37,269 bases of DNA, from NCBI GenBank assembly GCA_018004935.1, contig JAGNBF010000067.1, forward strand, positions 1 to 37,269. Reading direction: 5' to 3'. A program made the translations under genes and the position numbers. Shown in pieces: positions 3,558-29,633 of this stretch; within the stretch, counting starts at the first letter, position 1, and the number at the start of each line of letters is the position of its first letter. This DNA comes from Chloroflexota bacterium. GTDB taxonomy: Bacteria > Chloroflexota > Anaerolineae > Promineifilales > Promineifilaceae. Below the pieces are notes generated by a model, which was given only the letters and a program-made list of their open reading frames with translations, made no database searches and was not told the origin of the DNA.

Positions 3558-3698
3558 CGATACATACCCGCAGTTTAAGATGATTGGTTTGACCTATCTG
3601 GAGAAGTTGGTCGAGCAGGCTACGATGTTGGCAAGTAAGTGGCTAAAAGTCGAGTCAGGCCAAATATTAGAGAATTCAAACCCTTCAAAGGATGTACC

Positions 3699-4460: not shown

Positions 4461-4481
4461 CCAACCGACAGCAAGTAAACT

Positions 4482-4535
4482 CCACCACCCCACCACCCTC
4501 CACCACCCCACCAATACACCACCCCCACCCCCAAC
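4482..4535. repeat. C-rich CCACC spacer inside the ABC operon
   Basis: The gap between the ATPase and first permease genes is nearly all CCACC/CCCCA units, a pyrimidine-rich strand opposite a G-rich strand that could form a G-quadruplex. It ends just before the AAAGG ribosome site of the permease. Its effect on expression of the downstream gene is unknown. Confidence 0.7.
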
Positions 4536-4548
4536 AAAGGACTTAATC

Positions 4549-5736: not shown

Positions 5737-5750
5737 ACCTGGCCCTCACC

Positions 5751-6506
5751 ATGACACGTCGTCCCCAACCCTTTCTCACCCAATTGCTTGATCTTACCCT
5801 CATCCAGCTTTCTAACTGGCGTTGGAGTTGGCGTAATGTCATCATCATTGGCATCTTCGTCCCCCTGATTTCCATGCTCGCGTTAGGATCTTTTGCCGGT
5901 AAACAGGATAAAGAAGCATTAAGTTACGTCTTCATTGGGAACCTGGTATTGTCTCTCCTGTTTTCGCACCAGGGGCGTGTGGCCAGCAACTTCGCCTTCA
6001 TGCGGGCGGCCGGAATGTTAGACTACTTTGCCACCCTACCCATCTACAACATCAGCCTGATTCTGGGGACATTGGCGGCCTTTTTTATCCTTTTTCTGCC
6101 CTCGTTGCTGGTTACGATCCTGGCCGGACAATGGCTGTTAGGGTTAACCTTGCATGTGCATGTGCTCGCCCTGCTCATTATCCCGCTGGTTTCTTTGCCT
6201 CTGGCTGGTTTGGGGGCTTACATCGGGACATTATCCCGCCGTCCAGAGGATTCAATGTCCATTAACCAACTTATTACCTTAATCTTTTTGGGCCTGGGAC
6301 CCGTGATGATGCCACCGGATCGGCTTCCGGGCTGGCTATTAAACCTGGGGTGGATCAGCCCGGCCAATTACGCGGCCTCAGCCTTGCGCCAGGTCATTCT
6401 TGGCCCCGTGACGGGCCGTTTGGGGTTGGATGTACTCATGTTAAGCCTGTTTACCGTTCTCAGTTTATGGCTGGTGGCTCGACAGATGGATTGGCGGCAA
6501 AAGTAA
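5751..6506 (+). CDS. ABC-2 type permease, second subunit
   Basis: The 251-residue protein has about six membrane helices and a topology typical of ABC-2 transporter permeases, with the conserved region HQGRVASNFAFMRAAGMLDY and, near the C-terminus, LGWISPANYAASALRQVILG. It begins 14 bases after the NatB-like gene and clearly belongs to the same operon. It is not obviously a paralogue of the first permease, so the exporter may be a heteromer, or one ATPase may serve two permeases. No GCGGCCGC site is present. Confidence 0.82.
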   Translation: MTRRPQPFLTQLLDLTLIQLSNWRWSWRNVIIIGIFVPLISMLALGSFAGKQDKEALSYVFIGNLVLSLLFSHQGRVASNFAFMRAAGMLDYFATLPIYNISLILGTLAAFFILFLPSLLVTILAGQWLLGLTLHVHVLALLIIPLVSLPLAGLGAYIGTLSRRPEDSMSINQLITLIFLGLGPVMMPPDRLPGWLLNLGWISPANYAASALRQVILGPVTGRLGLDVLMLSLFTVLSLWLVARQMDWRQK

Positions 6507-9883: not shown

Positions 9884-12800
9884 TCAGGGCAGGGGCGCAA
9901 AACGAACAATGCGGTTGTTACCAACATCCGCGACATAGATGTTATCTGCCGCGTCAATAAATAGGCCGTTGGGGAGATTAAATTGACCATTGCCTGTGCC
10001 AAATTGACCGAAACGGGCCACGTAATTACCGTTGACATCAAAAACAATGACGCGATGACGATCTGGGTCGGTGATGTAGATGCGATTTTGGCTATCAATC
10101 GCCAGGAATGGTTTTTGTGTGTTGGTGTCGCCACGCCAGGCATTCACCCCCCAATCAAAAAAGGCGGTGAAGTTAGTGTCAAACCGCTGAATACGACCAT
10201 TCCAGGTGTCACCAAGGTATATGGTCCCATCTGGGGCTACGCTTAGCCCTACCGGTTCATACATCTGCCCCGCGGCCGCGCCAAATCCACCAAAACTTTG
10301 ACTAAATACACCCTCTTTGTCGAATATCTGAATACGGTGATTACCGGTATCAGCAATCAGAAGGCGTTCATTGTCCAAAACCACAATATTACGTGGCCCA
10401 TAGAAGATGTCATCGCCTACATCACCATTCGCCAAAGAGCCAAGTCGCCCAAATTGACTGATAAACGCACCATCAAGGCTAAATATTTGCACCCGATGGT
10501 TCCAGGTATCGGCAACATAAACATATTCTTCATCCACAGTGATACCCCAGGGATCATTAAATTGTCCCGGTTCGGCTCCTTGTGAACCCCAACTCCCCTG
10601 GTAAACCCCATCCCGATCAAAGTATTGCACCTGCGAATTACCCGCATCCAGCACATAAATTGTGCCATTGGCGGCCACGGCGACATTATGGGCATTAAAG
10701 AAACTGCCCGCCTGCGTAGAACCGGTCAGCACCAAATCTGGCTGTAACACCAGGTCATTCTCGGCATAAGGATCAATATAGGGATCAATATGGGCATTGG
10801 CCGCACCCGCACCAAAATCCCACAAACCAGCTTTCACATCATTACGGATGTAGAGGCGTAACCCGTGCCGCAGGGGCCAGTTACTCAGACGATAATCTTT
10901 GTTGAACAGTTCGCTGTAGCGAGTGTAATCACGGTAGAAGAAGATGTCCCAGAAGGCGTGTAAGACGGCGGGGCTGGTGAGACCACGCCGGGCGGGGGCA
11001 TCGGGCAGGCTAAAATCTAGTTCCTTGTTGGCCGTTCCGAATATCGCATCCCAGGAAATCTCCCGATAATCTTCGTTGGGCCACCAGATAAAGTTATAGT
11101 GGAATTCCTCATAATCGGTGCTTAAGGTATCACCAATGAGTTCTTGTACTTTATTGTAATTATTGTCGCCCACTATGATGACTGGGGCATCTAACAGATT
11201 ACGCCCTGGTTGATCGCCGTAGTACAGACGATTGGGGTAATTCCGTAAGTACCAGGTCATGGGCCAGGAAGAGTCGTTATCGAAGGCGACTTGCATACTA
11301 CGGTCGCCATAGAGCCGATAGGAGAGTTCTTCGATTTTGGTCATGACGGCCCCTTTGGTAGTGGGAGCGCCGTGGGCATAGACGAGATACTCGGTTGGGT
11401 AATCCCCATTGGGGTAGCTGGCCTGATAACTGGTGCGCAGGGTGAGCAAACTCAGGAGGATGAAGAGGGCGATAGTGCCGGTTAATGGACGAATTGTGGG
11501 TAAAACCCGCGGCCGCACCTGGAGCACCAGCCATACTAATCCCCCTACCACAATCAGGCTACCCAGAAACTGCCCTAACCGGCTCAGGTTAGCCGTAGAT
11601 TGATCGCCCAGGCTGACCTGACCAAAAAGGATGTATCGTCCGGCCAGGGCGATAGCTATCAGGAGCAAGGTCATCAATCCGGTGAGGCTGAGAGCTGGCC
11701 GGGTGAAAAACCAATCGCGCACAGCCGGTGTCAGCCGCTCATTGAAATACCACCCCACCAAGAGAGCCATCGGTGGTACAAAATGGGCGCTCAGCCAGGG
11801 CATCTTTTCCCCGGCCACGCTGTAAAAAATCCAGGAGAGGATGAGCCACCAGATGGTAAAGGGGATGAAGTCGAGTAAGGCTTCCGCATTGAAGAGATCA
11901 CGCCAGCCATTTTCCAGCCCCAATTCCGCCTTCATGCTCCGGCTAATGCTGAGGAACCAGAGCAAAACAGCCGCCAACAGAATAATCGCGGCCGCAACCA
12001 ACCCCGGCCATTTGAGCAAACCCGCCTGGTTTTCAGGAACGGTAATGGTTTGATAAGAGAGCCAGCGAATGACAAACCAAACATAGAGAAGTGTGGCTCC
12101 CCAGTTACGCCAGGTGACAAGGGTGGGATTAACCGTGCGGCCGCGCCACCACCAATCGCTTAAAATGACCAGCACCGTCAAACCCACCACCGGCAAGAAA
12201 GGTTGCCAATTGGCAAAAATCACTATCCGGCTAGAAAACCAGTTCACGAGGGTGTAAGCCAGAAGCGCCGTTAGGACAAACGCGCCCCAATAACGTGCCA
12301 GCGGCCGCAGACGGTTCTGCCCCACCCAATACCCTATGGCAACGGCAGAAAAGATAACCGATAGGTATTCATAAAGCGGTACGACAAAAAAATAGTAGAG
12401 CAATGGCTGGCTACCACGCTCCACTTCTTGTTGAGCCATCCAGTAGGCGAGGGAATCTACCATGCCGCTGGCCCAGCCGGGCAAGTTGGTAAACAGTGAG
12501 GTGTGTAAAATAGTAAAAATCGCCTGGAAAATAATTAAGGCGATCCAGAAGCGGCGTTGATGCCACCATAGGCCTAACAAAATAGCCGCGACCAGACAGA
12601 CCACCAGGAAAATGGTGATGTAAAAAGTGCCGGAAGCGAAGAAATTTCCCAGGCATTCCGGGTTAGTCAGACGATAAAGCGCCAGATTAAAAGGAGACAG
12701 TTGATCCTGGCCCACTATTTCACAGGTCAGGTTGAGCGAGTAATCACGAGGGGTCCAGCCGGTCAGGGCGGCGGGCACTGCGCCTAACATGGGCAAAATC

Positions 12801-13801
12801 AAGACCGTATAGAGAAGCACCAGATCAAATTCGCCATAATGATCCAATTGGGGGCGAATCGCTTTAGCGGTGAGGAAAACGGCATAAGCGGCCAAAGCCA
12901 ACCCGGCAAATTGCACCCAACGCATGAGGGTTTCGATTTGACTGGAAGTTGTAGAAGCATCTGCGGCCGCGGCCGCGTCTTCGGTGGGGTCAGCGGCAAA
13001 AGTTTCTGCCTGGTCTTCTCCCTCAGCGGCAGGGGTTTCGGCCTGGGCCGTGAGTTTCTGGACGGCAAAACCACCCGCCAATAAGGCCACCCCCAAACCG
13101 ATGAGAGCCAGCGGCCGCGCCAGACGGCTAATCTGCTCATGGAATACACCATCACGCCAGAGAAAAACAAACAGGCGGATGAGTAAGAAACTGCCAAAGA
13201 TGGCTGTATAAATAAAAGAGACTTCTTTGGTAGAGAAGAGAAGCGCATTCGCGGCCGCGAACCACCACAAATATTTTTCCTCACGACGACGCAAATACAT
13301 CCAGATAGCCCAAACAATGAGCAACGCCCACACCACCACAAAGGCTTCATTACGGATGTACCGGGCATAATAGACGGTATAGGGAGAAATCAGGAAAATA
13401 AAACTAACAACCAACGCCCCAGTACGTCCCAGCCAGTTACGGAAGAAGTAGGGTAACAAAATCAGCACGACCCCAAACAAAGCGGTGGGAATCCGAGCAG
13501 TGAAATCATTGGCCCCAAACAGCCAGTAACTAAGGGCGGTGATGTGGAATAAGAAGGGGCCATGCATCAACGGGGTATGGTCATACCCTTGCCCGTCATA
13601 AAACTGGAAGGAGTATTGCACATGCAGGCTTTCATCATGGCTCACCACCCGGTCGCCCAGGCTCCAGAAGCGGCTCAAAATGGCCAGGATGACGAAGGTG
13701 GTATAGAGGACTTTTTCCCAATCCAGAGCATAAAACACGGCCAGGATTTGCGGCCGCGGTTCAGGCATTATCTCGTCCGGTATCGTTGTCAGTTCACTCA
13801 T
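9884..13801 (-). CDS. GT-C glycosyltransferase/NHL-propeller protein (TIGR03663, Agl23-like), paralogue B
   Basis: The 1305-residue protein has an N-terminal polytopic GT-C domain with the luminal acidic motif SHDESLH (about 54-60), the usual catalytic or metal site in PMT/GT39-related enzymes. A soluble domain follows the motif AGEKMPWLSAHF. The C-terminal 300 residues hold NHL repeats (VADTWNHRVQIF, IADTGNHRIQIF, VADVGNNRIVRF) forming a beta-propeller. The family accompanies TIGR03662/DUF2298 proteins, which lie downstream here. The start ATG at 13801 is chosen because MSELTT aligns with MTDLTT of the paralogue; a GTG at 13810 overlaps the previous stop and is an alternative. It is the last gene of the operon. 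Ten GCGGCCGC sites. Donor and acceptor are unknown. Confidence 0.85.
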   Translation of the reverse strand: MSELTTIPDEIMPEPRPQILAVFYALDWEKVLYTTFVILAILSRFWSLGDRVVSHDESLHVQYSFQFYDGQGYDHTPLMHGPFLFHITALSYWLFGANDFTARIPTALFGVVLILLPYFFRNWLGRTGALVVSFIFLISPYTVYYARYIRNEAFVVVWALLIVWAIWMYLRRREEKYLWWFAAANALLFSTKEVSFIYTAIFGSFLLIRLFVFLWRDGVFHEQISRLARPLALIGLGVALLAGGFAVQKLTAQAETPAAEGEDQAETFAADPTEDAAAAADASTTSSQIETLMRWVQFAGLALAAYAVFLTAKAIRPQLDHYGEFDLVLLYTVLILPMLGAVPAALTGWTPRDYSLNLTCEIVGQDQLSPFNLALYRLTNPECLGNFFASGTFYITIFLVVCLVAAILLGLWWHQRRFWIALIIFQAIFTILHTSLFTNLPGWASGMVDSLAYWMAQQEVERGSQPLLYYFFVVPLYEYLSVIFSAVAIGYWVGQNRLRPLARYWGAFVLTALLAYTLVNWFSSRIVIFANWQPFLPVVGLTVLVILSDWWWRGRTVNPTLVTWRNWGATLLYVWFVIRWLSYQTITVPENQAGLLKWPGLVAAAIILLAAVLLWFLSISRSMKAELGLENGWRDLFNAEALLDFIPFTIWWLILSWIFYSVAGEKMPWLSAHFVPPMALLVGWYFNERLTPAVRDWFFTRPALSLTGLMTLLLIAIALAGRYILFGQVSLGDQSTANLSRLGQFLGSLIVVGGLVWLVLQVRPRVLPTIRPLTGTIALFILLSLLTLRTSYQASYPNGDYPTEYLVYAHGAPTTKGAVMTKIEELSYRLYGDRSMQVAFDNDSSWPMTWYLRNYPNRLYYGDQPGRNLLDAPVIIVGDNNYNKVQELIGDTLSTDYEEFHYNFIWWPNEDYREISWDAIFGTANKELDFSLPDAPARRGLTSPAVLHAFWDIFFYRDYTRYSELFNKDYRLSNWPLRHGLRLYIRNDVKAGLWDFGAGAANAHIDPYIDPYAENDLVLQPDLVLTGSTQAGSFFNAHNVAVAANGTIYVLDAGNSQVQYFDRDGVYQGSWGSQGAEPGQFNDPWGITVDEEYVYVADTWNHRVQIFSLDGAFISQFGRLGSLANGDVGDDIFYGPRNIVVLDNERLLIADTGNHRIQIFDKEGVFSQSFGGFGAAAGQMYEPVGLSVAPDGTIYLGDTWNGRIQRFDTNFTAFFDWGVNAWRGDTNTQKPFLAIDSQNRIYITDPDRHRVIVFDVNGNYVARFGQFGTGNGQFNLPNGLFIDAADNIYVADVGNNRIVRFAPLP

Positions 13802-13806
13802 AATTG

Positions 13807-16800
13807 TCACTGTGTTGGGGTAGGTTCAGGCTCATTGGTGGGTGTGATTGTGGCGGTATCACCGGTTAGCGTTACCTCATTCGTAGAGGTGGCTGTGGCT
13901 GTGGCCGTCGCGGTAGCCCGTCGGGTGGGGGTAGCTGAAGGGGTTGGTGAGGCTTCAACCGTAGCTGTCGCTTCTGGTGTGGCAGTCACTTCTGGCGTTG
14001 GCGTAGGGGTGGGGGCCAAAGTCAGCGACGCATAACGCACAATCCGATTTTGGGTCGTGTCTACCACATAAATCCGATCTTGGGCATCAATGGCAATACC
14101 CGTGGGCAGGCCCAGACGCCCACCATCCAGGCCATCCAGACTAAATGTACCGATGAAATTACCGGCGGCGTCAAAAACCAGAACCCGTGATTGTTCGGGA
14201 TCGGTCAGGAAAACCTGCCCCCGACTATCTATGGCAATATAGGGTTTATTATTGGTAGATTCGCCGCTCCAGGTCTGCACGGGCCAGGCAGTTACCGGGC
14301 GCAGATCACCACTAAAGAATTGCACCTGATGATTCCAGGTATCCACAACGGCATAAAGGCCATCTGGTGTACGGGCCAGCCCTACTGGTTCACTAAACAG
14401 ACCGGTAAACGTGCCGCGGCCGCCGATAGCCTGGAGTGGTGTGCCATTTTGATTCAATAATTGCAGGCGATGATTACCCGTATCCGTCACCAATAACAGA
14501 TCATCCGCCAACACCAGAACACTCCGAGGGCCAAAGAACAACCCTAATCCTTCCAACGGGGCACTATTCTGATCTCCCGGCTCGCCAATGGTAGACAGAT
14601 ATTCGCCGGTGAGGCTAAACTTCTGAATGCGATGATTCCAGGTATCGGCAACAAAAACGGCTTCATCATTAACCGCAATGCCCCAGGGTTCATTGAGTTG
14701 GCCCGGTTCGCTCCCATTTTCGCCCCAACTACGCAAAAAGTTTCCATCTGCGTCTAGCACCACAATACGATGATTGCCTGAGTCAGCTATGTACAGATTA
14801 CCGTCAGGGCCAATGGCCAGGTTACGCGGGGCCGCCAGCCCCCCTTCTTCGCTATTCGTTATGATTAGTTCAGGGTTTACCGCCAAGGGTTGGCCCTGGT
14901 ACACATCTTCCTGGGGCACGTCTACCGCCGGAATATCGGCAGGCACATCGGCCGCGACGGCTTCTCCTTCTTGCCACAATTGGGTTACGGCATCATTACG
15001 GATATACAGCCGGAACTCATGCCGCAGGGGCCATTGGCCAGAGGTAAATGTACCCCCAAAAACCTCGCCGTATTTGGTGTAATCGCGATAAAAAAAGATG
15101 TCCCATAAGGCCCGGCGCACATCGGCGCTGAGAATACCTCGTTGGGGCGGATCTTCAGTAACGACACCGGTGGGGTTGGGATAAACACCCAGAAAGGCAC
15201 TCCAGCCCAGGCTACGGTAATCTTCCATCGGCCACCAGAGGAAGGAAAGGGTATAGGTGCGATAATTTTGGTCCAGGGATTCCTGCAAGGTAGGATCTAT
15301 TTTGCCCCAATTACGATTGCCGATGAGGATAACGGGGGCATCCAGAATGCTGGCATTGGGGGTTGACCCATAATAATATTTGTTGGGATAGTCGCGTAAA
15401 TACCAGGTATAAGGCCAGGCTACGTCATCGTCGTAAGCCACCTTGATGCTTTTGTCGCCATACATTTGCATGGAGAGTGTTTCTAGCTGGTTGAGAACGA
15501 CATCTTTGGTAGAGGGGTTGCCGTGGGCATAGACGAGAAATTCGTTGGTGTAATCAGCATTGGGGCCATTGGCCATATAGTTAAAACGAATGGTAATAAC
15601 GGCGAGGAGAATGAAGAAGGCGAAGATGCGGGTCTGCGGCCGCAAACTTTCATCCATTCCTTCTACTTTAAAATAGAGGTAATAGATACCCAGGGCAATC
15701 AGAGCACCCCCCAGCAGAACCACCAACCCTACCAGATTATTCTCAGCGCCATTGCTCAAGCGCAACCCACCCAACAAAATAGGGCCGAGGGCGAACAAAA
15801 CGGCCAGAATAAAGGTGATCATCAGCCCCAACAGGAGCCACCAGCGACGGGTTAGCAGGGTGATGCGGTTGAGCGCGGCCGCTTTTTCGTTCATGTACCA
15901 GCCCGACAAAGCGGCCAGAGGCAAAATGAAGTGGGTACTGAGCCAGGGCATCTTCTCGCCAGCAACGGTATACAACACAAACGAAAAGATCACCCACCAG
16001 ATCAAGAACGGAACAAAATCCCCTAATACCTCGGCGGCAAAGATCGTAGACCAGTTCCGTTTGATTTTGTACTCATCTTTCAGGTGGGCCAGGTAAACCA
16101 GCGCCCAATAGATCCCCCCTGCCAATAAGATCAGACCAGCGACCAATGTCCCATTCAAACGATTGGGGCTGGCAATGGTCGCATCCAGATTAAGATTGGT
16201 ATACCAATTTACCAGACTGTAACCGATTAGCGCCAACAGAATGACACTGAACCAATAGCCGATAATTTTGTGGAGGCGGTTTTTTTGTGCCCATAACCGC
16301 GTTGCTAATAAGGCAAACGTGAGGGACAAAAATTCATAAAAAGGCAGGGCAAAGAGGTAGTAAAAATTAGGCTGACTGCCGCGCTGAACTTCTTGTTGCT
16401 CCATCCAATAAGCTAATGAGTCCAACATACCACTTTGCCACCCTTTGGGATAGGAAAAGAGGGCGGTAAATAGAGCCACAAAAATGAGGTGGAAGATACC
16501 CCCGGCAATGAGCCAGCGCCGCCGATCCCACCATAAGCCCAAAGCGACAGAAACAGCCAATAAGCCGATGAGCATGAGCATTACATGCGCTCCCCCTGAG
16601 TTGAAATAGGAGCGCCAACATTCCCCATCTACGAGGCGGCTGAAGAAAAGGGAGAAGGGGGACATGGAAGCCTGTTCGGGGAAAACACAGGTGGCGGTGT
16701 TGTAATCACGAGGTGTCCAGCCAGTCATAACGGCAAAGACGGGGGTGATAGTAGGGAGGGTGAAGGTAGTAAAGAGGATGATGAGGTCAAATTCAGCGTA

Positions 16801-17745
16801 CTCTTGTAGCCGCGGCCGCAACTCTTTTACCCCCATAAATAAACCAATCCCCACCAGCACCACCCCACCAAACTGTATCCATCCCCAGATTTTGTTCGTT
16901 TCCGCGGCCGCGATAGGGGTTGTTTGTGGAGCATTGGGATCAGCGGCAAACCCTTCATCCTCAGTTTCGGGGGTTGTTGTGGTAGCTTCCGGCTCATTTA
17001 ACTGCCGCGCCCCCACAAACCCGCCCCCCAGGACAATCAGACCGAAGGCGACAAGCATGAGTGGCGTTGTCAGGTTGCCCAGGGCTTTACGAAACCAGGA
17101 TGTTTGCCAGAGAATCAATCCCAGGCGTAACACCAGGAAGCTCCCAAAAATGGCGATGTAGATGTAACTATTTTCCTTGGTAGCAAACATGAGAGCGTTC
17201 GCGGCCGCGAACCACCACAAATATTTGTCCTTTCGTTCCCGCAGGTAATACCAGATAGCCAGGAAAATGACCGCCGCCCAGACAATGATAAACATATCCT
17301 CGCGGATATAACGGGAGTAATAGGTGATATAGGGGGAGATAAGCAACAAAAAACTGGTAAACAAAGCCCCAACCCGCCCTACCCAAGGGCGCAAAAACAG
17401 CGGCAACATCACAAAAATCACCCCGATAAGCGCCACCGGGAGTCGGGCAGACCCATCACTCACCCCAAAGAGCCAATAAAAGGTAGCGGCACTATGAAAA
17501 ACCATCGGCCCATGCATCATGGGGTTATGCTGATAACCTTCCCCCAGGTAATACTGATAGGCATATTGGGTGTGAAGGCTTTCATCATGGCTCACTACCC
17601 GATCATCTAGCCCATAAATGCGGCTAAAGAGAGCCAGAATGAGAATGATCAGGTAAAGCGCTTTCTCCCAATCCAGGGCAAAGGAAGTGCGTAGCGGCCG
17701 CGCAAGAAAAGAGGTCGGTGTGGTAGGAGTTGTCAGATCAGTCAT
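13807..17745 (-). CDS. GT-C glycosyltransferase/NHL-propeller protein (TIGR03663, Agl23-like), paralogue A
   Basis: The 1312-residue protein is collinear with the gene at 9884: SHDESLH at about 52-58, AAANALMFATKE, AGEKMPWLSTHF, then NHL repeats (IADSGNHRIVVLD, VADTWNHRIQKF, VTDTGNHRLQLL, VVDTWNHQVQFF). It differs in a roughly 70-residue C-terminal tail of Thr/Pro/Ala/Ser (TPTPTPEVTATPEATAT, then an (AT)n run), absent in the paralogue and coded by GT-rich tandem DNA. Such tails are typical exported linkers and possible O-glycosylation targets. It starts two bases after the anti-sigma stop and ends four to nine bases before the start of paralogue B, implying translational coupling. Seven GCGGCCGC sites, several at different places from the paralogue. 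Confidence 0.86.
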   Translation of the reverse strand: MTDLTTPTTPTSFLARPLRTSFALDWEKALYLIILILALFSRIYGLDDRVVSHDESLHTQYAYQYYLGEGYQHNPMMHGPMVFHSAATFYWLFGVSDGSARLPVALIGVIFVMLPLFLRPWVGRVGALFTSFLLLISPYITYYSRYIREDMFIIVWAAVIFLAIWYYLRERKDKYLWWFAAANALMFATKENSYIYIAIFGSFLVLRLGLILWQTSWFRKALGNLTTPLMLVAFGLIVLGGGFVGARQLNEPEATTTTPETEDEGFAADPNAPQTTPIAAAETNKIWGWIQFGGVVLVGIGLFMGVKELRPRLQEYAEFDLIILFTTFTLPTITPVFAVMTGWTPRDYNTATCVFPEQASMSPFSLFFSRLVDGECWRSYFNSGGAHVMLMLIGLLAVSVALGLWWDRRRWLIAGGIFHLIFVALFTALFSYPKGWQSGMLDSLAYWMEQQEVQRGSQPNFYYLFALPFYEFLSLTFALLATRLWAQKNRLHKIIGYWFSVILLALIGYSLVNWYTNLNLDATIASPNRLNGTLVAGLILLAGGIYWALVYLAHLKDEYKIKRNWSTIFAAEVLGDFVPFLIWWVIFSFVLYTVAGEKMPWLSTHFILPLAALSGWYMNEKAAALNRITLLTRRWWLLLGLMITFILAVLFALGPILLGGLRLSNGAENNLVGLVVLLGGALIALGIYYLYFKVEGMDESLRPQTRIFAFFILLAVITIRFNYMANGPNADYTNEFLVYAHGNPSTKDVVLNQLETLSMQMYGDKSIKVAYDDDVAWPYTWYLRDYPNKYYYGSTPNASILDAPVILIGNRNWGKIDPTLQESLDQNYRTYTLSFLWWPMEDYRSLGWSAFLGVYPNPTGVVTEDPPQRGILSADVRRALWDIFFYRDYTKYGEVFGGTFTSGQWPLRHEFRLYIRNDAVTQLWQEGEAVAADVPADIPAVDVPQEDVYQGQPLAVNPELIITNSEEGGLAAPRNLAIGPDGNLYIADSGNHRIVVLDADGNFLRSWGENGSEPGQLNEPWGIAVNDEAVFVADTWNHRIQKFSLTGEYLSTIGEPGDQNSAPLEGLGLFFGPRSVLVLADDLLLVTDTGNHRLQLLNQNGTPLQAIGGRGTFTGLFSEPVGLARTPDGLYAVVDTWNHQVQFFSGDLRPVTAWPVQTWSGESTNNKPYIAIDSRGQVFLTDPEQSRVLVFDAAGNFIGTFSLDGLDGGRLGLPTGIAIDAQDRIYVVDTTQNRIVRYASLTLAPTPTPTPEVTATPEATATVEASPTPSATPTRRATATATATATSTNEVTLTGDTATITPTNEPEPTPTQ

Positions 17746-17747
17746 AT

Positions 17748-18260
17748 TTACGGGTTAGGAAATAAAAAGGCGATAGGGGTAGCCTGTGTCACCGGTGTCA
17801 CCAGAAAAGGTTGGTTTTCTGGGGCTTCCGTGCTGGTAACCGGTATGGTCAATGTATGGGTGACGGTAGCCGGTACGGGCGTTATCGTTGCGGTTGCTAC
17901 CACATGGGTGGGTGAGGGATCCCCACCCCAGTCAGCGCCATAAGCCGGGCCTAAACTCAAACTGGCCACAAGTAAAAACAGGAAGACGCCCACCAGGGCC
18001 AGACTTCTCTGCCAGGAGGCGGTGGTGTACCAGGAACGATGACGCAGAGGTACGGGTGGCATCAAGTGGGCCAGGCGGGTTGGGGCAGGAGTGGAGACAA
18101 GCATCAATGTATCACGTGTGAGGTGAACAAGGTGGCGCTCGGCCTGCAACAACTGCCGACACCGCGCACACGCGGCCGCATGCTGTTCCACACGTACCTT
18201 TTCCCCCGCCGGGAGCAAATCCAACAGATAATCAGAAATAAGGTCAGTGATATGATCCAT
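17748..18260 (-). CDS. Zinc-finger anti-sigma factor
   Basis: The 170-residue protein has the anti-sigma zinc motif HxxxCxxC (His27, Cys31, Cys34 in EQHAAACARC) in an N-terminal cytoplasmic domain (about 1-45), a membrane helix (about 85-105, LALVGVFLFLLVASLSLG), and a Thr/Pro/Val-rich exported tail (about 110-170). It should bind and inhibit the adjacent ECF sigma factor. Its ATG overlaps the sigma stop by one base (TAATG), the standard arrangement for sigma/anti-sigma pairs. The exported tail resembles the TP-rich tail of the downstream Agl23-like protein and could be the sensed or glycosylated part. Confidence 0.85.
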   Translation of the reverse strand: MDHITDLISDYLLDLLPAGEKVRVEQHAAACARCRQLLQAERHLVHLTRDTLMLVSTPAPTRLAHLMPPVPLRHRSWYTTASWQRSLALVGVFLFLLVASLSLGPAYGADWGGDPSPTHVVATATITPVPATVTHTLTIPVTSTEAPENQPFLVTPVTQATPIAFLFPNP

Positions 18261-18880
18261 TAAATCTCTTCCATCAATCGTTTCTTCAATTCCTGATGCG
18301 CCAACCGCATCCGTGATTCGGCTGTTTTGGCCGGAACCCCCACAATATCCCCTATTTCGGCATAGGTCAGCCCTTCGTAATAACGCAAAAGGGCCGTTTC
18401 GCGCAATTTAGGCGAAAGTTGTTTTAACGCTTGCCACACAACCTTTTGTTCATGGGTAAGTGCTAACGTTTCATCAGGAAGTGGGGTTTCCGTATCAGTT
18501 ACATCCTGCGTGACAAGCTGACTCAGGGAAAAGGAAGGGAGCCATTTGCGACGCCGTTTGTTACGACACCGGCTCAAAGCAATCTGGTAAAGCCAGGTTT
18601 TAAAAGCCGCCTTCCGACCATCAAAACGGTGCAGGGTCCGAAAAGCATATTCAAAGCTATCCTGCAACACCTCTTCAGCATCTTCCCTATTTTGTAGCAG
18701 ACCATAAGCCAGCCGATAAATCATGCCCGACAAGCGGCTATACAGTACCCCATAAGCCGCCTCTTCTCCTGCCAGACAACAATCAATCAGGGATTGATAT
18801 TCGTCCCCAGTTTTAGCCACAATGGCCGCAGGCGTAAAGGAAAGGGTTTCACTCATAATTATAGAAATAGGTACTACCAT
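18260..18880 (-). CDS. ECF RNA polymerase sigma factor
   Basis: The 206-residue protein has sigma region 2 (about 36-110: AYGVLYSRLSGMIYRLAYGL, REDAEEVLQDSF, FKTWLYQIALSRCRNKRRR) and region 4 (about 150-205: LSPKLRETALLRYYEGL, TYAEIGDIVGVPAKTAESRM), without regions 1.1 and 3, as in ECF factors. The ATG at 18880 overlaps the stop of the upstream glycosyltransferase gene by one base; an in-frame ATG at 18856 (MSETLSF) is an alternative. It is followed directly by its anti-sigma factor. Its target promoter is not identified; autoregulation of this glycosyltransferase operon is a natural guess. Confidence 0.9.
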   Translation of the reverse strand: MVVPISIIMSETLSFTPAAIVAKTGDEYQSLIDCCLAGEEAAYGVLYSRLSGMIYRLAYGLLQNREDAEEVLQDSFEYAFRTLHRFDGRKAAFKTWLYQIALSRCRNKRRRKWLPSFSLSQLVTQDVTDTETPLPDETLALTHEQKVVWQALKQLSPKLRETALLRYYEGLTYAEIGDIVGVPAKTAESRMRLAHQELKKRLMEEI

Positions 18881-20679
18881 TATCGGGCCAGGTCTGTCCT
18901 AAGCCAGACATTGATCTTCTGTTCATTGACCGGCATGGCACTATCATGGAAAAACCACCAGCGCAAGGTGGCAAAAAGGTTGCCCTGGTACTCCGCTTCT
19001 TGAGCACCCAGCCCCTGGCGCAACAGACCAAACTCACTACCCAGATAACTCGGTGGCGCGGCCGCGCCCTCCGCCGCATCCGTGATCAGCAAATCCTGGC
19101 TGGGGTTATCTGGCAAGATGTCACCCACTTCATACAGGGCAAAATCGCGTAGCGTCCAGCGCAACACCGGACTATCCACCGTGCTAAAAATCGTGAGATC
19201 AAACTGGGAGTTCGTTGCCTGCAAAGCCAGTTCCTGACTCATTTCCGCGAAGAACTGAATATCATCATCTGTTCCCTGGCGTACCCACCGCTCTCGGGGA
19301 TCATTAGCGGCTTCATGAGTAAGCCACCAGGCCGTACCCCAGGTATAGAGCAAAAACAGAGGCAACAAACCGGCCATTACCCCCTGCCAGGTCGCCAGAG
19401 CATGAAAACGTGACAGGTAAATAAGGGCAAAGAGTGCCGTGCCGCCCAATACCAACGCCCGATAAACATTGCCATTTATCTCGGCCTCTACGGCAGTACG
19501 GCTGAACAAATGTATATTGATGTAAACCATCAAGCCCAAGACAAATAACAACGCCGCTACCAACCAGCGCCAATCGGGGGCCGGAATAAGCCAGATTTCA
19601 TTGACAAACAGGCCAATCAAGATGTAACCCGGTACAGTCAGGAGTAAAACATTGTCCAGGTTGCCCCGCTGAAGAAAGACAAGCAACAGAACAGCCGTGA
19701 ACCAATAAATGAAAAAGGTGGGAAACGGCCGTCCCTGCCAGGTAGACCAGGCAATAGCAACGGCTCCCAAAAGGAGCAAAATCAATTCATATCGTCCCAG
19801 GGCCAGAATAGGTTCCACCCATTGGATCAACTCGCCCTGGAAACTGATTTGCCCCAACCAGAGAGCGGGCAGGGTAGCCGTTAACCCCAGGCCTGGTAAA
19901 AACCAAAAGAAAAGGGTGCTTAAGCCGAATACCGCGGCCGCAAAAACAATTCCTGCCGACCGCCAATCAGCCCGCTCCGGCCAACTGGTGGGCACGGCCA
20001 CATACACTGGCCCATCCTCATCCATCTGTTCGCGGTAAAAAATGGGTGGTCCCAAACGAGCCTGAGCCAGATAAGCCAGCCCTACCGTCAGGAAAAAGCC
20101 ATAAAATAGAGGAGCACTGGTAAGGCCGAGAGCCAGAGCCATCGCGGCCGCGTGCAACCATCTTTTCTCCCCTTCTTCCTGATAACGCAACCAGGCCACC
20201 AACAGCAATCCCCCAGCCAATAACCCTAACATCGAACCATCGGCCGTGCGCGAGGCAACTCCCAGTGTAGGCGAAACAGCCAACAACAACCCGGCCACCA
20301 ACGCCCCCATAGCCCCCAACCAGCGCCGCATCAGCCACGGGAGCAAGACCAGGCCTATGCCCGCCAGAGCCGGAATCAGTCGCACCACCACCTCATCCGC
20401 ACCTAAAACAGGCATCAACAAAGCCGTCAGGCTCACATAGGCGGAACTGGTAGCCGGATAACTCACCATGGCCTGGGGTTGCCACAATTGCCAGGCCGAA
20501 AGGGCGTTAGACGCTTCGCCCGGTGCGAGAGGAATAGCACTCAGATTCGTCAACCGTAGCACCCCGGCCAGGATGAGCACAGGCACAAAAAGGCCATCCG
20601 CAACGGTCAGGCGGGAGAACCAGCCTGTGGTTTCTATTTCTGTCTTTTCATTCTCGGTTTCGTCGTAAGCAATTGTCAT
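18880..20679 (-). CDS. GT39/ArnT-like membrane glycosyltransferase
   Basis: The 599-residue protein has about 11-12 membrane helices and a soluble C-terminal domain of about 130 residues. The first external loop has PLAPGEASNALSAW, the position where GT-C enzymes keep their catalytic acidic residue, here Glu alone rather than Asp-Glu. Family members transfer a sugar from a polyprenyl-phosphate donor to protein, lipid or glycan. The start is the ATG at 20679 (MTIAYDETENEK); a TTG 81 bases upstream would add a poorly supported hydrophobic extension. It is the first gene of the run continuing through the sigma/anti-sigma pair and both Agl23-like genes. Three GCGGCCGC sites. Confidence 0.8.
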   Translation of the reverse strand: MTIAYDETENEKTEIETTGWFSRLTVADGLFVPVLILAGVLRLTNLSAIPLAPGEASNALSAWQLWQPQAMVSYPATSSAYVSLTALLMPVLGADEVVVRLIPALAGIGLVLLPWLMRRWLGAMGALVAGLLLAVSPTLGVASRTADGSMLGLLAGGLLLVAWLRYQEEGEKRWLHAAAMALALGLTSAPLFYGFFLTVGLAYLAQARLGPPIFYREQMDEDGPVYVAVPTSWPERADWRSAGIVFAAAVFGLSTLFFWFLPGLGLTATLPALWLGQISFQGELIQWVEPILALGRYELILLLLGAVAIAWSTWQGRPFPTFFIYWFTAVLLLVFLQRGNLDNVLLLTVPGYILIGLFVNEIWLIPAPDWRWLVAALLFVLGLMVYINIHLFSRTAVEAEINGNVYRALVLGGTALFALIYLSRFHALATWQGVMAGLLPLFLLYTWGTAWWLTHEAANDPRERWVRQGTDDDIQFFAEMSQELALQATNSQFDLTIFSTVDSPVLRWTLRDFALYEVGDILPDNPSQDLLITDAAEGAAAPPSYLGSEFGLLRQGLGAQEAEYQGNLFATLRWWFFHDSAMPVNEQKINVWLRTDLAR

Positions 20680-20890: not shown

Positions 20891-21170
20891 GCAACGGGCA
20901 CAATCTGCGGTTTTTTCGCCCTGTCGCCTTATCGCCCCGTCGGGTATATCCGAGGCCACCTCCATCCCTAACCCCGCCCCCAGGAGTGGGGAACTTTTCT
21001 CGGCACGGTTTGGTGGGTGTCCGCCCGCCAAACCGCACCGGTGGGTTTCTCCCCTTCCCTCTGGGAAAGAGACGGGGGATGGGTCTTCAACCTGGGCTTA
21101 CCCAATCTGTTACCGCCAATAACATGTCATTTTATGATCGTGGTAACTATATACACGGTCACAAAAAATA
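20883..21170 (+). repeat. Dispersed repeat R joined to family-A hairpin repeat (copy 4)
   Basis: About 20883-20965 matches 32895-32990 and, reversed, 3155-3220 (core TTTTTTCGCCCTGTCGCC). About 20967-21090 is a family-A unit with the hairpin around 21001-21040; its arms pair with a few mismatches or wobbles. The tail GATGGGTCTTCA...CAATCTGTTACCGCC...TTTATGATCGTGGTAAC at 21076-21155 recurs at 30087 and 33166. No gene between 20680 and 21206. Confidence 0.7.
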
Positions 21171-21206
21171 AACCGCACAACGTTCAACTTATTTAATCGT
21201 TGTCCC

Positions 21207-21674
21207 TTAACGAATCAGTGTCATTATATTACCCGCTAACGCCTCTTCAATTCGCTCAATATGATGTTCCATCACATCCAGGTTCGCCATTTCTGCCAGG
21301 GTAAAATAACCATAAGCCGTTGTTTCATCGCTTAATCCCAATTCACCCCCCACGACCTGAACGACAAAAGAGAAGGCCACGAATTGAAACTCGTTACCAT
21401 CAGCATAACGCACGATACGATGAGGAGTTGTATAGATGCCTGCTAACCTATCTACAACCACCTGCAACCCGGTTTCTTCCCTTACTTCCCGTACAATCGC
21501 TTCACTGGCACTTTCCCCAGAATCCATGCCACCACCAGGCAAACACCAACGACCATTATCAGTACGTTGAGTGAGCAAGATTCGTGTACCACTCGGGTCA
21601 AAAATGATAGCGGAACAGCCCACACGAAGTTGGGCCTGTTTGCCAATGCGTTCCCCATAAAGTAATTGTGCCAT
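21207..21674 (-). CDS. Nudix hydrolase
   Basis: The 155-residue protein carries a complete Nudix box, GGMDSGESASEA followed by IVREVREETGL (about 48-70), with all the metal-binding Glu residues of REVREE. It is preceded by RWCLPGGG, typical of MutT/ADP-ribose pyrophosphatase-like members. The substrate, a nucleoside diphosphate linked to X, cannot be specified. The C-terminal half is a typical beta/alpha ending. It stands alone on the minus strand between two repeat-filled gaps, near sugar-transfer genes. A role in nucleotide-sugar housekeeping is possible but unproven. No GCGGCCGC site. Confidence 0.9.
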   Translation of the reverse strand: MAQLLYGERIGKQAQLRVGCSAIIFDPSGTRILLTQRTDNGRWCLPGGGMDSGESASEAIVREVREETGLQVVVDRLAGIYTTPHRIVRYADGNEFQFVAFSFVVQVVGGELGLSDETTAYGYFTLAEMANLDVMEHHIERIEEALAGNIMTLIR

Positions 21675-21848: not shown

Positions 21849-24482
21849 TTACTGAGTCGGTTGCCAATGATAGATAACCACGGAGTTATTCTGATAGGCT
21901 ACTTCCATGTACTGGGCGAATTTGGCTAACCCTTCTGGAGCATAATCAGCCCGTTCGGTGTTGCCGACGTAAATATATTCAACATCATATTTAAGCAACA
22001 GATCACGGACGGTCAGCCAATCGGGGTTGTTATAAATTTGGGCAATCGCCTGTTCCCGTTCAGGCGGTTCAGAGGTGGTGCCGCGCCATTGGTATTCGTG
22101 ATTGGCCCACCCTAACACAGCAGGTATTCCAGTTTCAGCAGAGACACGGGCATATTCTGGGCGATACGCGCCCCCTACGGCTTCCACCAAAACCGGTGTG
22201 CCACTGACGTTTTCACGCAACCACATAATAGCGGCATACTCATCAGGCTGGTCATTTTGGAGATGGGCCAGACCATTTAAGGTCGCAGGGCGACGAAACT
22301 CGGCATCCGCCGCACCCCGGTATTCCATGCCGCGAGATTGGACAGCGTAATAAGGGAAGAGCAACGCGGCCGCGAGACCAACTGCATACACCAGCCCGGT
22401 TACATATCCAGCCCATTTTTCTTCTTCCAGAAGATAGTAGAGAGCCACCAGCGCGGCCGCGCCAAACATTACCCATGCCTGATAGTAAAATTTAAAAATC
22501 GTGTTGAGCCGTTGGGCAAAATTATCCTTCAGGTATACATATTCTGGTCCCAACGTCAACAACGCCCCGGTTAAGGCCAATAACAGCACAAAAGGCAAAG
22601 CCGGATAACGGGCCAACAAGGCAGGGGTAGCAGGCTTCTGCCGCTTCAGGGGAGACTCGTCCTCGGCAAACAGTTCATCACTCGCGGAAGTTGATTCAGG
22701 CTTCGCGGCCGCTGATTCACCCAATGTTTCCGCATACCACATAACCGTCAGACCGATGAGCGCCCCCAGGAGTAACGTCACACCCGGATATGCCAGTCGT
22801 GCCCCCACTACCGCCGGAATCAGGTTGGCCACGGCGCTGGCGCCCCAAGCCAGACGAGCAAAAGGGGTAGCATCGGGCAATAGGGGTACGAGCGGCCGCG
22901 CCAATTCATTGCTCAAATTAATAACCGTATTCGCCCCTTCACTACTGCTGGCGATAATCCACCCCATGAGCAACATCAGCCCCATCAGCCCCAAGACCAA
23001 CCCCCCTCCGGCAGACAAAGCCACCTTCCAGCGACGAGTTGGTTGTCTTACGACCAGAGTTACCAAGAAAATGGTAAGCACCAGTAGAGGCAGGCCAAAA
23101 ATAATAAGAAAATGGGCCATGCGGGTGGGGCGCATGAGCATGGGCAAAATAAAAGGTGCCCCCGCCTGAGAACGGAACCCCAGGTAAAAGGGCAAATAAA
23201 GCAGAATTGCCCCCAGCACCAGTGTAAAAGCCAGAATGAGTGTCTGGCTGATAAGGCGGTTATGCCAGCCATTGTCCCGCCATTGGGCCAGGGCAAAGGC
23301 CGCTACCACCACAAAAAGATGAATCAGCACATCCCAGGTGTTGAGGAAAGAAAGTCCCCCCAAAACCACTGCCGTAAACAGCCAGAAAGCCGGATCAATA
23401 TGGCGAAAAAGATATTCGATGCGGCCGCGACCATCCAGTTCATCCCATTTCTGGCCCCTCAACCCAGGGAGCAGCCACCAGGCCAGGGCCAGCGCCAGAG
23501 ACACAAAGGCAAAGGGCAGGGCCAGTACATGCGGGTGCATATCTCCCAACATGAAACTAAAACCGGGAAACTCGGCAATGGGTTCTAGCCCTTCTTCACT
23601 GCGGCCGCTGAGTGTGTACTCATGAATCACCCGCGAGGAACGCCACCACCACCAGCCAGACGTTTCATAACGGGGTGTTTCTGTAACCACCGCCGGGCCA
23701 TTGATATCACGGACATCGAGCCAGGCCCAAAACCCATCGGAGCCTACCCCACTGGCATGAAGCAGTTCCATGAGCATCTGTCCATTGCCAGCCAGGGGAA
23801 TCGCCAGGGCGGCCACCAGCGCAAAACCTACAGCCCTTTGGTACACGGCCTGTTTATGGGCCGCAATAAGGTTATACACCAGACCAAACGCCCCAATGCC
23901 CGCTCCCGCTACCAGCCAGGCTATCCCCAGGTTAAAAGCCACCGGTTCCGATACCACAGCCAACCGGGCCAGAACTGAAGTCATCACATAGCCGAAGTAG
24001 TAGTAACTAATGGAATACCCCGAAAGCCAGGGATCTAAGGGGGGAAACTGAGTGCTTCGCCCAATGGAATTCAGAAAAGCAAATTCCATCGGTTTTTCGG
24101 TGTTCAAAATAGTCGGATTTTGTGCCCGTACCCATACCCATAGGGCAAACAGCCCAAAAAACAGAAGTTCGGTAATGATAATTTGCTGACGATTAGCCAT
24201 CAACCATTGGCCTAATGGTTGTTCCAGGCGGCGGGTGGCCCAAACGGATAAGGCCACCACGATGAGCAAGGCTAACAAGATGCTCCCCAGGTTGTTGCCC
24301 ATGAACCCCAGACTACCCATGAACCAGAAAAGGTAACTGACCAGGAGCAGGCCGATCATTTTGGTAAAGGCATAGCCCCGGTCGGGTAAACGGTGGAGAA
24401 AATAAGCGGTGAGAGGGGTTGCGGCCGCGCCCATGACCCACAACACCAGCCACCAGCGTGCGGCCGCGAACAGGTCTGTCAT
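21849..24482 (-). CDS. DUF2298 (TIGR03662-like) polytopic membrane protein
   Basis: The 877-residue protein has many membrane helices and family motifs: EKPMEFAFLNSIGRST, FPPLDPWLSGYSISYYYFGY, FKFYYQAWVMFG, and a soluble C-terminal segment with EYQWRGTTSEPPERE. Family knowledge: DUF2298/Chlor_Arch_YYY proteins are rare, occur in Chloroflexi and some archaea, usually beside TIGR03663 members, and are thought to be glycosyltransferase-related, with no firm reaction. It aligns along its length with the C-terminal half of the protein encoded just upstream. Its ATG overlaps that gene's TGA by four bases. Eight GCGGCCGC sites. A cytoplasmic insert near residues 590-625 (KPESTSASDELFAEDE) is hydrophilic. 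Confidence 0.85.
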   Translation of the reverse strand: MTDLFAAARWWLVLWVMGAAATPLTAYFLHRLPDRGYAFTKMIGLLLVSYLFWFMGSLGFMGNNLGSILLALLIVVALSVWATRRLEQPLGQWLMANRQQIIITELLFFGLFALWVWVRAQNPTILNTEKPMEFAFLNSIGRSTQFPPLDPWLSGYSISYYYFGYVMTSVLARLAVVSEPVAFNLGIAWLVAGAGIGAFGLVYNLIAAHKQAVYQRAVGFALVAALAIPLAGNGQMLMELLHASGVGSDGFWAWLDVRDINGPAVVTETPRYETSGWWWWRSSRVIHEYTLSGRSEEGLEPIAEFPGFSFMLGDMHPHVLALPFAFVSLALALAWWLLPGLRGQKWDELDGRGRIEYLFRHIDPAFWLFTAVVLGGLSFLNTWDVLIHLFVVVAAFALAQWRDNGWHNRLISQTLILAFTLVLGAILLYLPFYLGFRSQAGAPFILPMLMRPTRMAHFLIIFGLPLLVLTIFLVTLVVRQPTRRWKVALSAGGGLVLGLMGLMLLMGWIIASSSEGANTVINLSNELARPLVPLLPDATPFARLAWGASAVANLIPAVVGARLAYPGVTLLLGALIGLTVMWYAETLGESAAAKPESTSASDELFAEDESPLKRQKPATPALLARYPALPFVLLLALTGALLTLGPEYVYLKDNFAQRLNTIFKFYYQAWVMFGAAALVALYYLLEEEKWAGYVTGLVYAVGLAAALLFPYYAVQSRGMEYRGAADAEFRRPATLNGLAHLQNDQPDEYAAIMWLRENVSGTPVLVEAVGGAYRPEYARVSAETGIPAVLGWANHEYQWRGTTSEPPEREQAIAQIYNNPDWLTVRDLLLKYDVEYIYVGNTERADYAPEGLAKFAQYMEVAYQNNSVVIYHWQPTQ

Positions 24483-27400
24483 TGCATAACCTCATAAATA
24501 GAAGTTCCGCCATTACGATACACTTCCGTCAGATAACCATCTTGCACCATCTGATCAAACTTCAACAGGCCATTAATATCATAGTAAACATATTCCAACT
24601 GCCCCACATAAATATATTTGACATTGTATTTTTCGAGAATACGCTGAGCTTCATCGGTACTGGTGGTTGTGTATAGGGTCTGCACATCACCAATGCGGTT
24701 GGAGATGATAGTGCCAGGCAGAACAGCCCGCTGTTGCCGTTGATGCCAATCCCACCCCACCACCGAAGGCAACCCGGTGTACATGGCTACCCGCCCGGTC
24801 ACAGAGCGATATTCAACCGCTCCCCGCCCTTCGGCGACAACAGGCGAACCGGTGATATTCCGTTGCATCCATTGCAAGGCTTCATAATCGTAGCTAAGCA
24901 GAATGTTTTGACCATTGTCACCATAACTGGTGCTTTCTAGAAACACCATACCATCTAATGTTTTGGGAGCGGTTTGGGTCATGCGGACATTCCATTTAGC
25001 CGGGATAGCGGTGAGCGGATAAAGCGCGGCCGCGGCAACCAGCACCCCCAAAACAGCCAGCCACACCTTCTTGTGCCGCACGGTTGACCAGACCCAGGCC
25101 AAAGACACACCCCCCACCACACTCAGCATCAGCCACACCTGCATGTAAAACTTAAACACCGTATTCATGCGCCCCACATCCCCTTTTAAGACAAAAATCT
25201 CGACAAACAGGGTGAGGAACAGCGAAGCAGAGATGAGAATAAGGACCACCCGTCGCTCAATTTCTACCTGAGGCCGAATGCCCATTAATCCCGACAGGAG
25301 CACCAGAGGCAGAACCACCGGCGCAATCCAGTAATCACGGGCCAATAAAATAAGGATGACCAGGACAATGCCCACAGCCACTCCCACCAGAGGCCACATC
25401 ATGGGTTCTAGTTGCGCCATGCTCTCCAGGGTCCAGGTTTTGGCCCAGCGGCGAAACTCTACGGCCAGAAAGGTCAATGCCAGGAAAAGGAACAAGCCAT
25501 AAACGGTAAGGTAGTTAAATACATAACTATATGACCCTTTCCACAGTTCCAATGAGGTATAACCGGCCCCAAAATTGGCATCATAGGGGTAAAAAGCCAG
25601 GATAAACAGTCCCACAAAGGCGGCCAGTTGTAAACCGGTCTGGCCTATGGTTGTCAGGTCTACGCGGCCGCTGACACGTATTGCCCGGTAGAGAATGGCC
25701 AGACAGGCCAGCATAAGGAAGGTGGGCCAGTCCCAGGTATTGGTAGCCTTGAGCGCCCCAATCATAATGCCCCCTACCACCCAGAGAAGCCATAATTGCC
25801 AGCCTCGCTCTCGTGTGGGGAGATTGGCCGCCATCACCAGAGAGACAGCCCAGGCCAGGGCCAGCATTGTCAGGGGCATGTCTACCATATGGGCGTGCAA
25901 GTCGCCATACAGGAAGGTAAAGAAGGGGAATTCGGTAATGGGTTGGGCTTCACCTTCGTTGTAATTGAGGGCGCGACTGGAGAGCCAGAACCAATCACCC
26001 GGATAGATGGGAGCCGTTTTATCGGGCGAAAGTAAATCCAGGCCACCATCTACGGTTTTGACCAGGGCATCTATTGCTTTCACTCCCGTATCCACCTGGC
26101 TATCACTGGCTTTTTGCCAGGTGGAAACAATCATGCCCCCTTGTGCCAGATTACCCAAAAGAACACAAATAACCGCGGCCGCGATTCCTGCCCCCACCGC
26201 CTTCATCCGCAAATTAGAGGGTTGCCCACGGTTCACTGACGACAGTTCACCATTTACGGGTGACGGTTCACGCTCCTGTCGCATCTCCCATCTTGCCACC
26301 AAATCATACGCCAGACTAAACACAGCCATGCCGGTAAAACTAAACAACATGGGCAGAATCAAGTTATAGGCCACGGTCGGCACAATCGCCAGCAGTTTGG
26401 TCAGTGCCCCCACATACACAAAACCCCAGTAGTAATAGTTGATATACCCACCCGCCAGCCATGGATCATACGGCGGGAAGGTAGTACTCTTCATCACCGC
26501 TGTGAAGTAGGTCAAATCCATCGGCTTTTCCCCACCCCAAATCACATCCCAGACATCAGGATTGCCCAGGCGGATGAGGATGAAGAGCAGATAGAGCGTA
26601 AGGGCACACAGTTCCGCTACCCCCAAAAAGGCCACATTCTCCCGCACAAAGCGGAAAATAGCCTGCCGCCAACGCACCAGAATGGCCCCATTGGCTACCA
26701 GGAGCAAGAACAACCCCAAGAGCAGTGTCCCCCGCGTGTTCGGCAAGATGTTTAGACTGGCTAAAATCCAACCGAAGTAAGCAATGAGTAATAAAACCAG
26801 GATGCGGGAGAAGAGGTATCCCCGGCCAGGCAACCCCCGGAACAGCATCCAGGAGAGGGGAAAGTTCAACCAGCCCAACAAGACAATAGCCAGCCACCAG
26901 ACGGCCGCGGCCGCGGCCGGGTTCTGGGATAAAAAGCCATCCGGGTTAAACGTCGTGGCAAAAGTACCATTTTCTACCTGCACCTCCTGCTCCTCAGGAG
27001 TGAGCATGAGACCATTCGGGGCTTCCGTCGCCTGTCCCGGCGTCATAAACATCTGGTTACTCAGGTCCACCGCACCCAATACCTCACGCACCCGCTCCGG
27101 ACTATAGGCCTCTGTTTTGGCAAAAATCCACACTGGTGGGTGATCATACACACTAAACGCCTCTTCAGCGGCCAATTCGCCCGGTGGGGGCCACCCGATT
27201 TCTGGCGGTGCGCCCCAACCCAATTCACCGCCAACATCACTGATATACAGGGGGCCAATATGGATGTCGGCATGAAACTGATTAACCAGTTCAAACCCCA
27301 ATTCACCGCTAAACAAAGCTTCATAGTAGCGGGTGGCCTGTGGAAACATCAACGGAATACGGGGTAATGACCACGAGGCCCGCTGGCTACTCAGCACCAC

Positions 27401-29455: not shown

Positions 29456-29633
29456 AAGAATGATGTTCTGTGATTTCAGGATGTAGGCACTACCGTTTTT
29501 ACCAGGAAATGGCAACAGGAACAGCCAATTGCCTCTTACGTTTTACACCTTAGATCTTACAAAGGCGTACCGTTCAGATTAGACAGGGCTTAAAAACAGT
29601 GAATACCAGGCCATTTCAGGGGTGCTCTGACCG

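Follow-up and report, generated by a model that had tools for sequence, protein, structure and literature searches.

SigW with RsiW and RpoE with RseA are the described systems closest to the one analyzed here: in each a two-domain sigma factor of the extracytoplasmic function (ECF) type is encoded next to a membrane anti-sigma factor in an autoregulated operon. The promoters of SigW and RpoE are typically of the AAC/CGT type. We analyzed a stretch of 37 269 nt (the window) from a Chloroflexota bacterium (contig JAGNBF010000067.1, assembly GCA_018004935.1), which encodes an ECF sigma factor and a membrane anti-sigma factor in an operon that is predicted to be autoregulated in a similar way. 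As in the RsiW type, the anti-sigma factor carries an Hx3Cx2C motif, and SigW (5wuq) is the nearest relative of the sigma factor with a solved structure. Unlike SigW/RsiW and RpoE/RseA, which occupy operons of their own, the pair is situated inside a cassette of membrane glycosyltransferase (GT)-like genes, and its predicted promoter has TRMGG and GTGTA boxes instead of those of the AAC/CGT type. Bacillus subtilis SigM-YhdL-YhdK is comparable too: SigM is an envelope ECF sigma factor which senses the status of the lipid carrier and is affected by GT2/GT-C pairs (PMC11081497), though two anti-sigma proteins act on SigM and its regulon is broader and centred on peptidoglycan. Autoregulation by an ECF sigma/anti-sigma pair is, as such, of a known kind; what is new, as far as we have checked, is that the pair is embedded in the cassette, together with its distinct promoter and the regulon predicted for it, and that such pairs have apparently been recruited repeatedly.

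We consider it probable that a dedicated ECF sigma factor, gated by the membrane anti-sigma factor, drives its own envelope-glycan operon along with a few other glycan genes, the signal possibly being a shortage or a fault of the glycan or of its carrier. In the window (Table 1) the pair lies in the middle of a run of five minus-strand open reading frames, between a GT-like gene and two tandem Agl23-like genes, A and B. Such a placement among glycosyltransferase genes had been reported in a preliminary description of the window, and we found the junctions to be as described: TAATG overlaps at both the GT/sigma and the sigma/anti-sigma boundaries, a gap of 2 bases between anti-sigma and Agl23-A, and, if the GTG start of Agl23-B is used, a 4-base overlap of Agl23-A with Agl23-B. 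The tight five-gene run is thus real; however, the operon is longer than was described, as it extends upstream of the GT-like gene to two DUF2298 genes (DUF2298-long and DUF2298-short), with a NUDIX hydrolase gene between them and the GT-like gene.

The sigma factor of about 200 aa has regions 2 and 4 only (Sigma70_r2, 56.5 bits; r4_2, 41.1 bits) and scores 88.8 bits with TIGR02937 (cut-off 42.9). Sigma factors of the cassette form a discrete group: in the class sample 11 matches exceeded 230 bits, with the next ones at 195 bits or less, and all 11 adjoin Agl23, an adjacency not shown for the next matches. The product of the gene beside sigma is identified as an anti-sigma factor by its zf-HC2 domain with Hx3Cx2C (35.3 bits, cut-off 22.2); this N-terminal zinc-type domain is followed by one transmembrane (TM) helix and a 66-aa tail rich in Thr, Ser and Pro. 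A TM helix, in most cases a single one, is present in 71 of 72 anti-sigma factors of the cassette, and 58 of these 71 keep Hx3Cx2C. Their tails (median 68 aa, 36% Thr+Ser+Pro) contained no recognisable domain, with a TPAPxPTPxA-like motif recurring close to the C-terminal end. The zinc ligands of Hx3Cx2C have been lost, with the remaining protein kept, in several relatives (loci L015, L029, L084 and L088); class I zinc-type anti-sigma factors are known to include zinc-less members (PMC7406223).

To assess conservation of gene order, we searched 58 relatives and read their loci; in addition, a scan of genomes of 84 980 species (GTDB collection) with the sigma alignment alone produced 221 relatives, of which the best 80 loci were kept. 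The conserved unit consists of six genes: DUF2298-long, DUF2298-short, GT-like, sigma, anti-sigma and Agl23. Among the best 80 loci, Agl23 was found at most 2 kb downstream of sigma in 75 (75 of the 76 with enough contig) and the GT-like gene upstream of sigma in 67; sigma identity across these loci is 44–70%, and 79 of them come from organisms labelled as Chloroflexota-type, with one metagenome-assembled genome (MAG) labelled Bacteroidetes. The five exceptions for Agl23 include four loci at or near a contig edge and one true rearrangement (L113). In the genome concerned (G031) the cassette is split, both pieces being located mid-contig: the DUF2298 genes, GT and sigma in L113 (contig C34), anti-sigma and Agl23 in L031 (contig C2). 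In the samples, sigma-bearing cassettes occur in five families (f1, f2, f21, f45 and f46). The second tandem Agl23 was not seen in the relatives examined within the family, where the gene is single copy. Also, the gap between the DUF2298 genes and GT is shorter than 300 bp in 59 of 61 loci measured, all with a sigma of the window type; the NUDIX gene is, therefore, not a conserved member of the cassette. Thus, the earlier expectation that the five-gene order would be conserved holds in part: conservation extends to the embedded pair in several families of the class, while the literal order has to be rejected, since the second Agl23 is local to the window and the unit is the six-gene cassette.

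Among 63 complete cassettes that we read, 18 carried a sigma of the window type (type 1), six carried another sigma between DUF2298-long and DUF2298-short (type 2), 39 had no sigma and none had both. In families f4, f8, f15, f20 and f22 the gene after the type-2 sigma encodes a membrane protein (277–308 aa) whose outer region is large; in one of three such proteins tested DUF4367 was above the cut-off. In family f38 a further pair likewise occupies the gap between the DUF2298 genes, beside two other predicted proteins. These arrangements suggest, at the level of sequence, that recruitment of sigma/anti-sigma pairs into the cassette has occurred repeatedly, with different pairs placed at different positions.

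The heads of type-1 operons share GTGTATAA along with a second box at a fixed distance; the consensus of the promoter dyad is yTRMGGa-N15-GTGTAtAA. In leave-one-out tests, 20 of 28 type-1 heads scored 9.6–28.5 (shuffle P ≤ 0.04), while all 33 heads of sigma-less or type-2 cassettes scored 5.6 or less, i.e. the motif is absent there. Across loci, the fixed-spacing dyad correlates with the presence of sigma. There were 12 loci with no GT gene in view before sigma (in some of them the contig begins there); in 10 of these a site was located at most ∼65 bp upstream of sigma. With a matrix built only from the heads of the near lineage, 31 of 51 distant loci had a site scoring at least 9 upstream of sigma (2.7% in the background, Mann–Whitney P ∼ 1e-16), and the upstream regions of anti-sigma and of Agl23 (2 of 53 for the latter) were no different from background. 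When all type-1 loci were considered, sites scoring at least 10 preceded sigma in 39 of 51 far and none of 33 near loci, anti-sigma in 11 of 31 near loci and Agl23 in none of 82. The dyad moves with sigma, to the head of the unit in which sigma is encoded. An FkbM-type methyltransferase-like gene stands at the operon head of one relative, with a site of the sigma type (L292, genome G006, contig C87; L065).

In three close relatives that have lost sigma (G017, G018 and G003) the GT-like gene directly adjoins Agl23. No dyad site was found in G017 and G018 (best scores 3.1 and 3.0), and in G003 the orthologue of the site of its congener G023 is decayed, with TACG changed to TACC and GTGTA to GGGTA. 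In the sequences compared, the motif is specific to sigma-bearing loci and disappears or decays with sigma. The window was scored with a matrix built without its own sites. The best site in the 37 kb (score 14.0), which is also the only exact match to the pattern, precedes DUF2298-long; the second best (13.8) precedes the GT-like gene, and both are on the coding strand. A motif shared by the regions upstream of 20679 and 29455 had been anticipated, and the two best sites precede exactly those genes.

These observations are consistent with the following circuit. In the resting state the membrane anti-sigma factor would hold sigma by its N-terminal anti-sigma domain. Its outer tail or membrane part would report a shortage or fault in the envelope glycan or lipid carrier, with sigma released as a result, and sigma-bound RNA polymerase would then start at the dyad promoters. 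One such promoter, predicted before DUF2298-long, would serve the entire operon. Some lineages have a predicted one immediately upstream of sigma or of anti-sigma, and related species have predicted ones ahead of a small number of unlinked glycan genes. As sigma and anti-sigma are both encoded in the operon, activation would feed back positively via sigma and negatively via anti-sigma. Self-control of the operon through the central pair, as it was proposed earlier, appears well supported by conservation of the pair and by the promoter motif, though control would reach further than the operon, as likely targets of sigma are also found at other places in the genomes of related species.

In the genomes of the window's family, genes located after exact matches to the pattern form a coherent set, encoding a UDP-sugar dehydrogenase (in five congeners), GT2 and GT4 enzymes, an LPG_synthase_TM membrane protein and an epimerase. 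A site scoring at least 11 was found within 300 bp upstream of all 12 GT2 orthologues and of 26 of the 41 scorable GT4 orthologues (background 0.6%), counts which include two GT2 and three GT4 orthologues that first drew our attention and hence are not independent. No GT4 site was observed in the sigma-less genomes G017 and G012. As judged from these sites, the assignment of the unlinked GT2 and GT4 genes as predicted sigma targets in related species is well supported; the LPG_synthase_TM protein, the UDP-sugar dehydrogenase and the epimerase are tentative candidates. The window's own genome gives no support for a large regulon, with four exact matches against 11 in the reverse-pattern controls. 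In one f21 genome (G331) an exact match, possibly a chance one, is located 172 bp upstream of a gene for an RpoD-like primary sigma factor (L284).

Several observations weigh against the proposed circuit. The motif GTGTATAA, the −10 box, was first spotted by eye and used as the anchor in training; independence can be claimed only for the tests that came afterwards. Of the 28 type-1 heads, eight failed in leave-one-out, several of them because a contig end is close by. The leader from promoter 2 to the GT start is long, about 390–470 nt. The exact pattern had 56 matches in the family genomes against 47 for the reversed control, so, judged by count alone, most exact matches beyond the cassette could be due to chance. 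The GT4 site is present in several incomplete MAGs with no detected sigma and is missing in some sigma-bearing genomes, including the window's own (10.3, a weak score), where only the operon site is convincing. Also, transcription from the sites, as well as binding of sigma by anti-sigma and the signal, is what the circuit presumes, and the glycan chemistry of all the operon enzymes is predicted and unproven.

Two alternatives concern the signal and are sub-cases of the circuit. The better one is that what the anti-sigma factor detects is located in the membrane, either the lipid carrier in its free form (undecaprenyl or polyprenyl phosphate) or a sugar linked to lipid, and is not the glycan outside; we regard it as a tentative but serious candidate, and its likelihood is not exclusive of that of the circuit itself. 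An anti-sigma factor that has a single TM helix and lacks a sensor domain on the outside would fit such sensing, and the cassette and predicted regulon consist of GT-C and GT2 enzymes, types that use lipid-linked donors. There is also a precedent: SigM-YhdLK of Bacillus responds to undecaprenyl phosphate, and an imbalance of the CsbB/YfhO-type GT2/GT-C pair activates SigM (PMC11081497). Still, SigM is controlled by a two-protein anti-sigma complex whereas one anti-sigma is seen here, and no lipid-binding site was identified in the sequence.

The other possibility is that the tail of the anti-sigma factor is itself glycosylated by the PMT/ArnT-like enzymes of the operon; upon failure the bare tail would be cut, sigma freed and more enzyme made. 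One could speculate that the tail is a reporter substrate whose under-glycosylation raises the enzymes, a thermostat of surface glycosylation gauging its own output. We find this idea, the thermostat included, unlikely, and less likely than lipid-carrier sensing, though it is the more novel of the two. It draws on the nearly invariant TM helix and the domain-free tails with their recurrent motif, on the similar tail of the f38 pair in the same cassette and on enzyme folds resembling those of ArnT and protein O-mannosyltransferases. On the other hand, tails rich in Thr and Pro are frequent among the secreted proteins of Chloroflexota, the contrast with other anti-sigma factors is based on few proteins (two zf-HC2 controls from these genomes), so that the argument uses the descriptive properties of the tails only, and the type-2 anti-sigma, also encoded in this cassette, shows a larger outer region that is DUF4367-like.

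That the pair only shares a transcript with the glycan genes and has an unrelated regulatory target, with the motif being a housekeeping promoter, we hold to be improbable. Membership in an operon shows no regulation by itself, and GTGTATAA does resemble a −10 box of the TATAAT type; however, the upstream box at fixed spacing is unlike TTGACA, and a housekeeping promoter is disfavoured by the absence of the motif from every sigma-less or type-2 head and by its loss or decay in the sigma-less close relatives. A chance or lineage-private insertion of the pair, or its hitch-hiking, can be rejected with near confidence: many families do lack the pair, as the count of sigma-less cassettes indicates, but it is conserved in five sampled families at the sigma identities given above, and others have a different pair in a different gap, the two never occurring together.

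With regard to the enzymes, the GT-like protein scores above the cut-off for PMT_2 (33.8 bits, cut-off 26.1) and below that for TIGR03663 (64.1 versus 126.25 bits). The TIGR03663 cut-off is exceeded by both Agl23-A (195.6 bits) and Agl23-B (203.5 bits), each with C-terminal NHL repeats; of this tandem pair only copy A has a Thr/Pro-rich C-terminal tail. DUF2298-long scores 348 bits with Pfam DUF2298 and 47.6 bits with PMT_2, and DUF2298-short matches TIGR03662 with 513.8 bits. Thus, for the Agl23/TIGR03663 family as well as for the Chlor_Arch_YYY/DUF2298/TIGR03662 family, the proteins of the window score above the curated cut-off. To our knowledge, neither family has an established function, and in the open literature, which leaves most subscription journals outside, we found no study of their reaction or regulation.

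AlphaFold models were obtained for the GT-like protein (predicted local distance difference test, pLDDT, 91.4) and for residues 1–940 of Agl23-A (pLDDT 81.4). For both, ArnT was the top structural match (5f15/5ezm, E 7e-9, for the GT-like protein), followed by structures of oligosaccharyltransferases and protein O-mannosyltransferases, with which the modelled proteins appear to share the GT-C fold. Identity to those enzymes is about 10–22%. The GT-like protein differs from them in having no Asp in the D-E motif, and Agl23 in having an additional NHL propeller. In the first outer loop of the GT-like protein no complete D-E motif was found, the window having PGE; alignments show that homologues across the class keep the Glu of the pair and not the Asp. 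As only the Glu is kept, the catalytic role of the GT-like protein is uncertain, and it is possible, judging from the alignments, that it is an altered or non-catalytic partner. Conserved motifs HDE and HGP were seen in alignments of Agl23.

Table 1. Genes and predicted promoters of the window, and sigma pairs found between the DUF2298 genes in other cassettes
Feature	Position	Strand	Domains and remarks
Predicted sigma-dependent promoter 1 (CGGTACGCCTTTGTAAGATCTAAGGTGTAAAA)	29541..29572	(-)	Operon head, before DUF2298-long
DUF2298-long	29515..24479, possible start ATG 29455	(-)	PMT_2 + DUF2298; cassette gene 1
DUF2298-short	24482..21849	(-)	TIGR03662 Chlor_Arch_YYY; cassette gene 2
NUDIX hydrolase	21674..21207	(-)	Pfam NUDIX 71 bits; local insertion between DUF2298-short and GT
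Predicted sigma-dependent promoter 2 (TTGTGCGGTTTATTTTTTGTGACCGTGTATAT)	21149..21180	(-)	Before GT-sigma-anti-sigma-Agl23 run
GT-C glycosyltransferase-like gene	20679(ATG)..18880, alternative start 20760(TTG)	(-)	PMT_2, ArnT-like fold (model)
ECF sigma factor	18880..18260, alternative start ATG 18856	(-)	Sigma70_r2 + r4
Membrane anti-sigma factor	18260..17748	(-)	zf-HC2
Agl23-like GT-C enzyme A	17745..13807	(-)	TIGR03663, C-terminal NHL propeller, Thr/Pro tail
Agl23-like GT-C enzyme B	13810(GTG)..9884	(-)	TIGR03663, C-terminal NHL propeller; local tandem duplicate
Type 2: different ECF sigma + larger membrane anti-sigma	L039:14100-15442, L043:14202-15579, L055:11321-12859, L173, L183		DUF4367-like
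f38: further sigma + short Thr/Pro-tailed membrane protein	L213:7090-8166, L215:6353-7316		Oriented coordinates

DUF2298 and Agl23-like proteins are near-universal in the class (TIGR03663 was found in 113 of 114 high-quality genomes), and a dedicated sigma with a recognisable promoter would give a handle on their pathway. The promoter motif predicts partners (GT2 and GT4; tentatively LPG_synthase_TM and UDP-sugar dehydrogenase) and so points towards the glycan that is made. Furthermore, the same operon with different pairs at different positions offers a natural comparison for studying how regulators enter operons.

Near the end of the operon, on the opposite strand, the window encodes a MurJ-type lipid II flippase (1422–2966) and an ABC transporter with an ATPase and two permeases (3639–6506). 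A 160-bp tandem repeat (36562–37269; at least 4.4 copies, 98% match) runs off the other end of the window.

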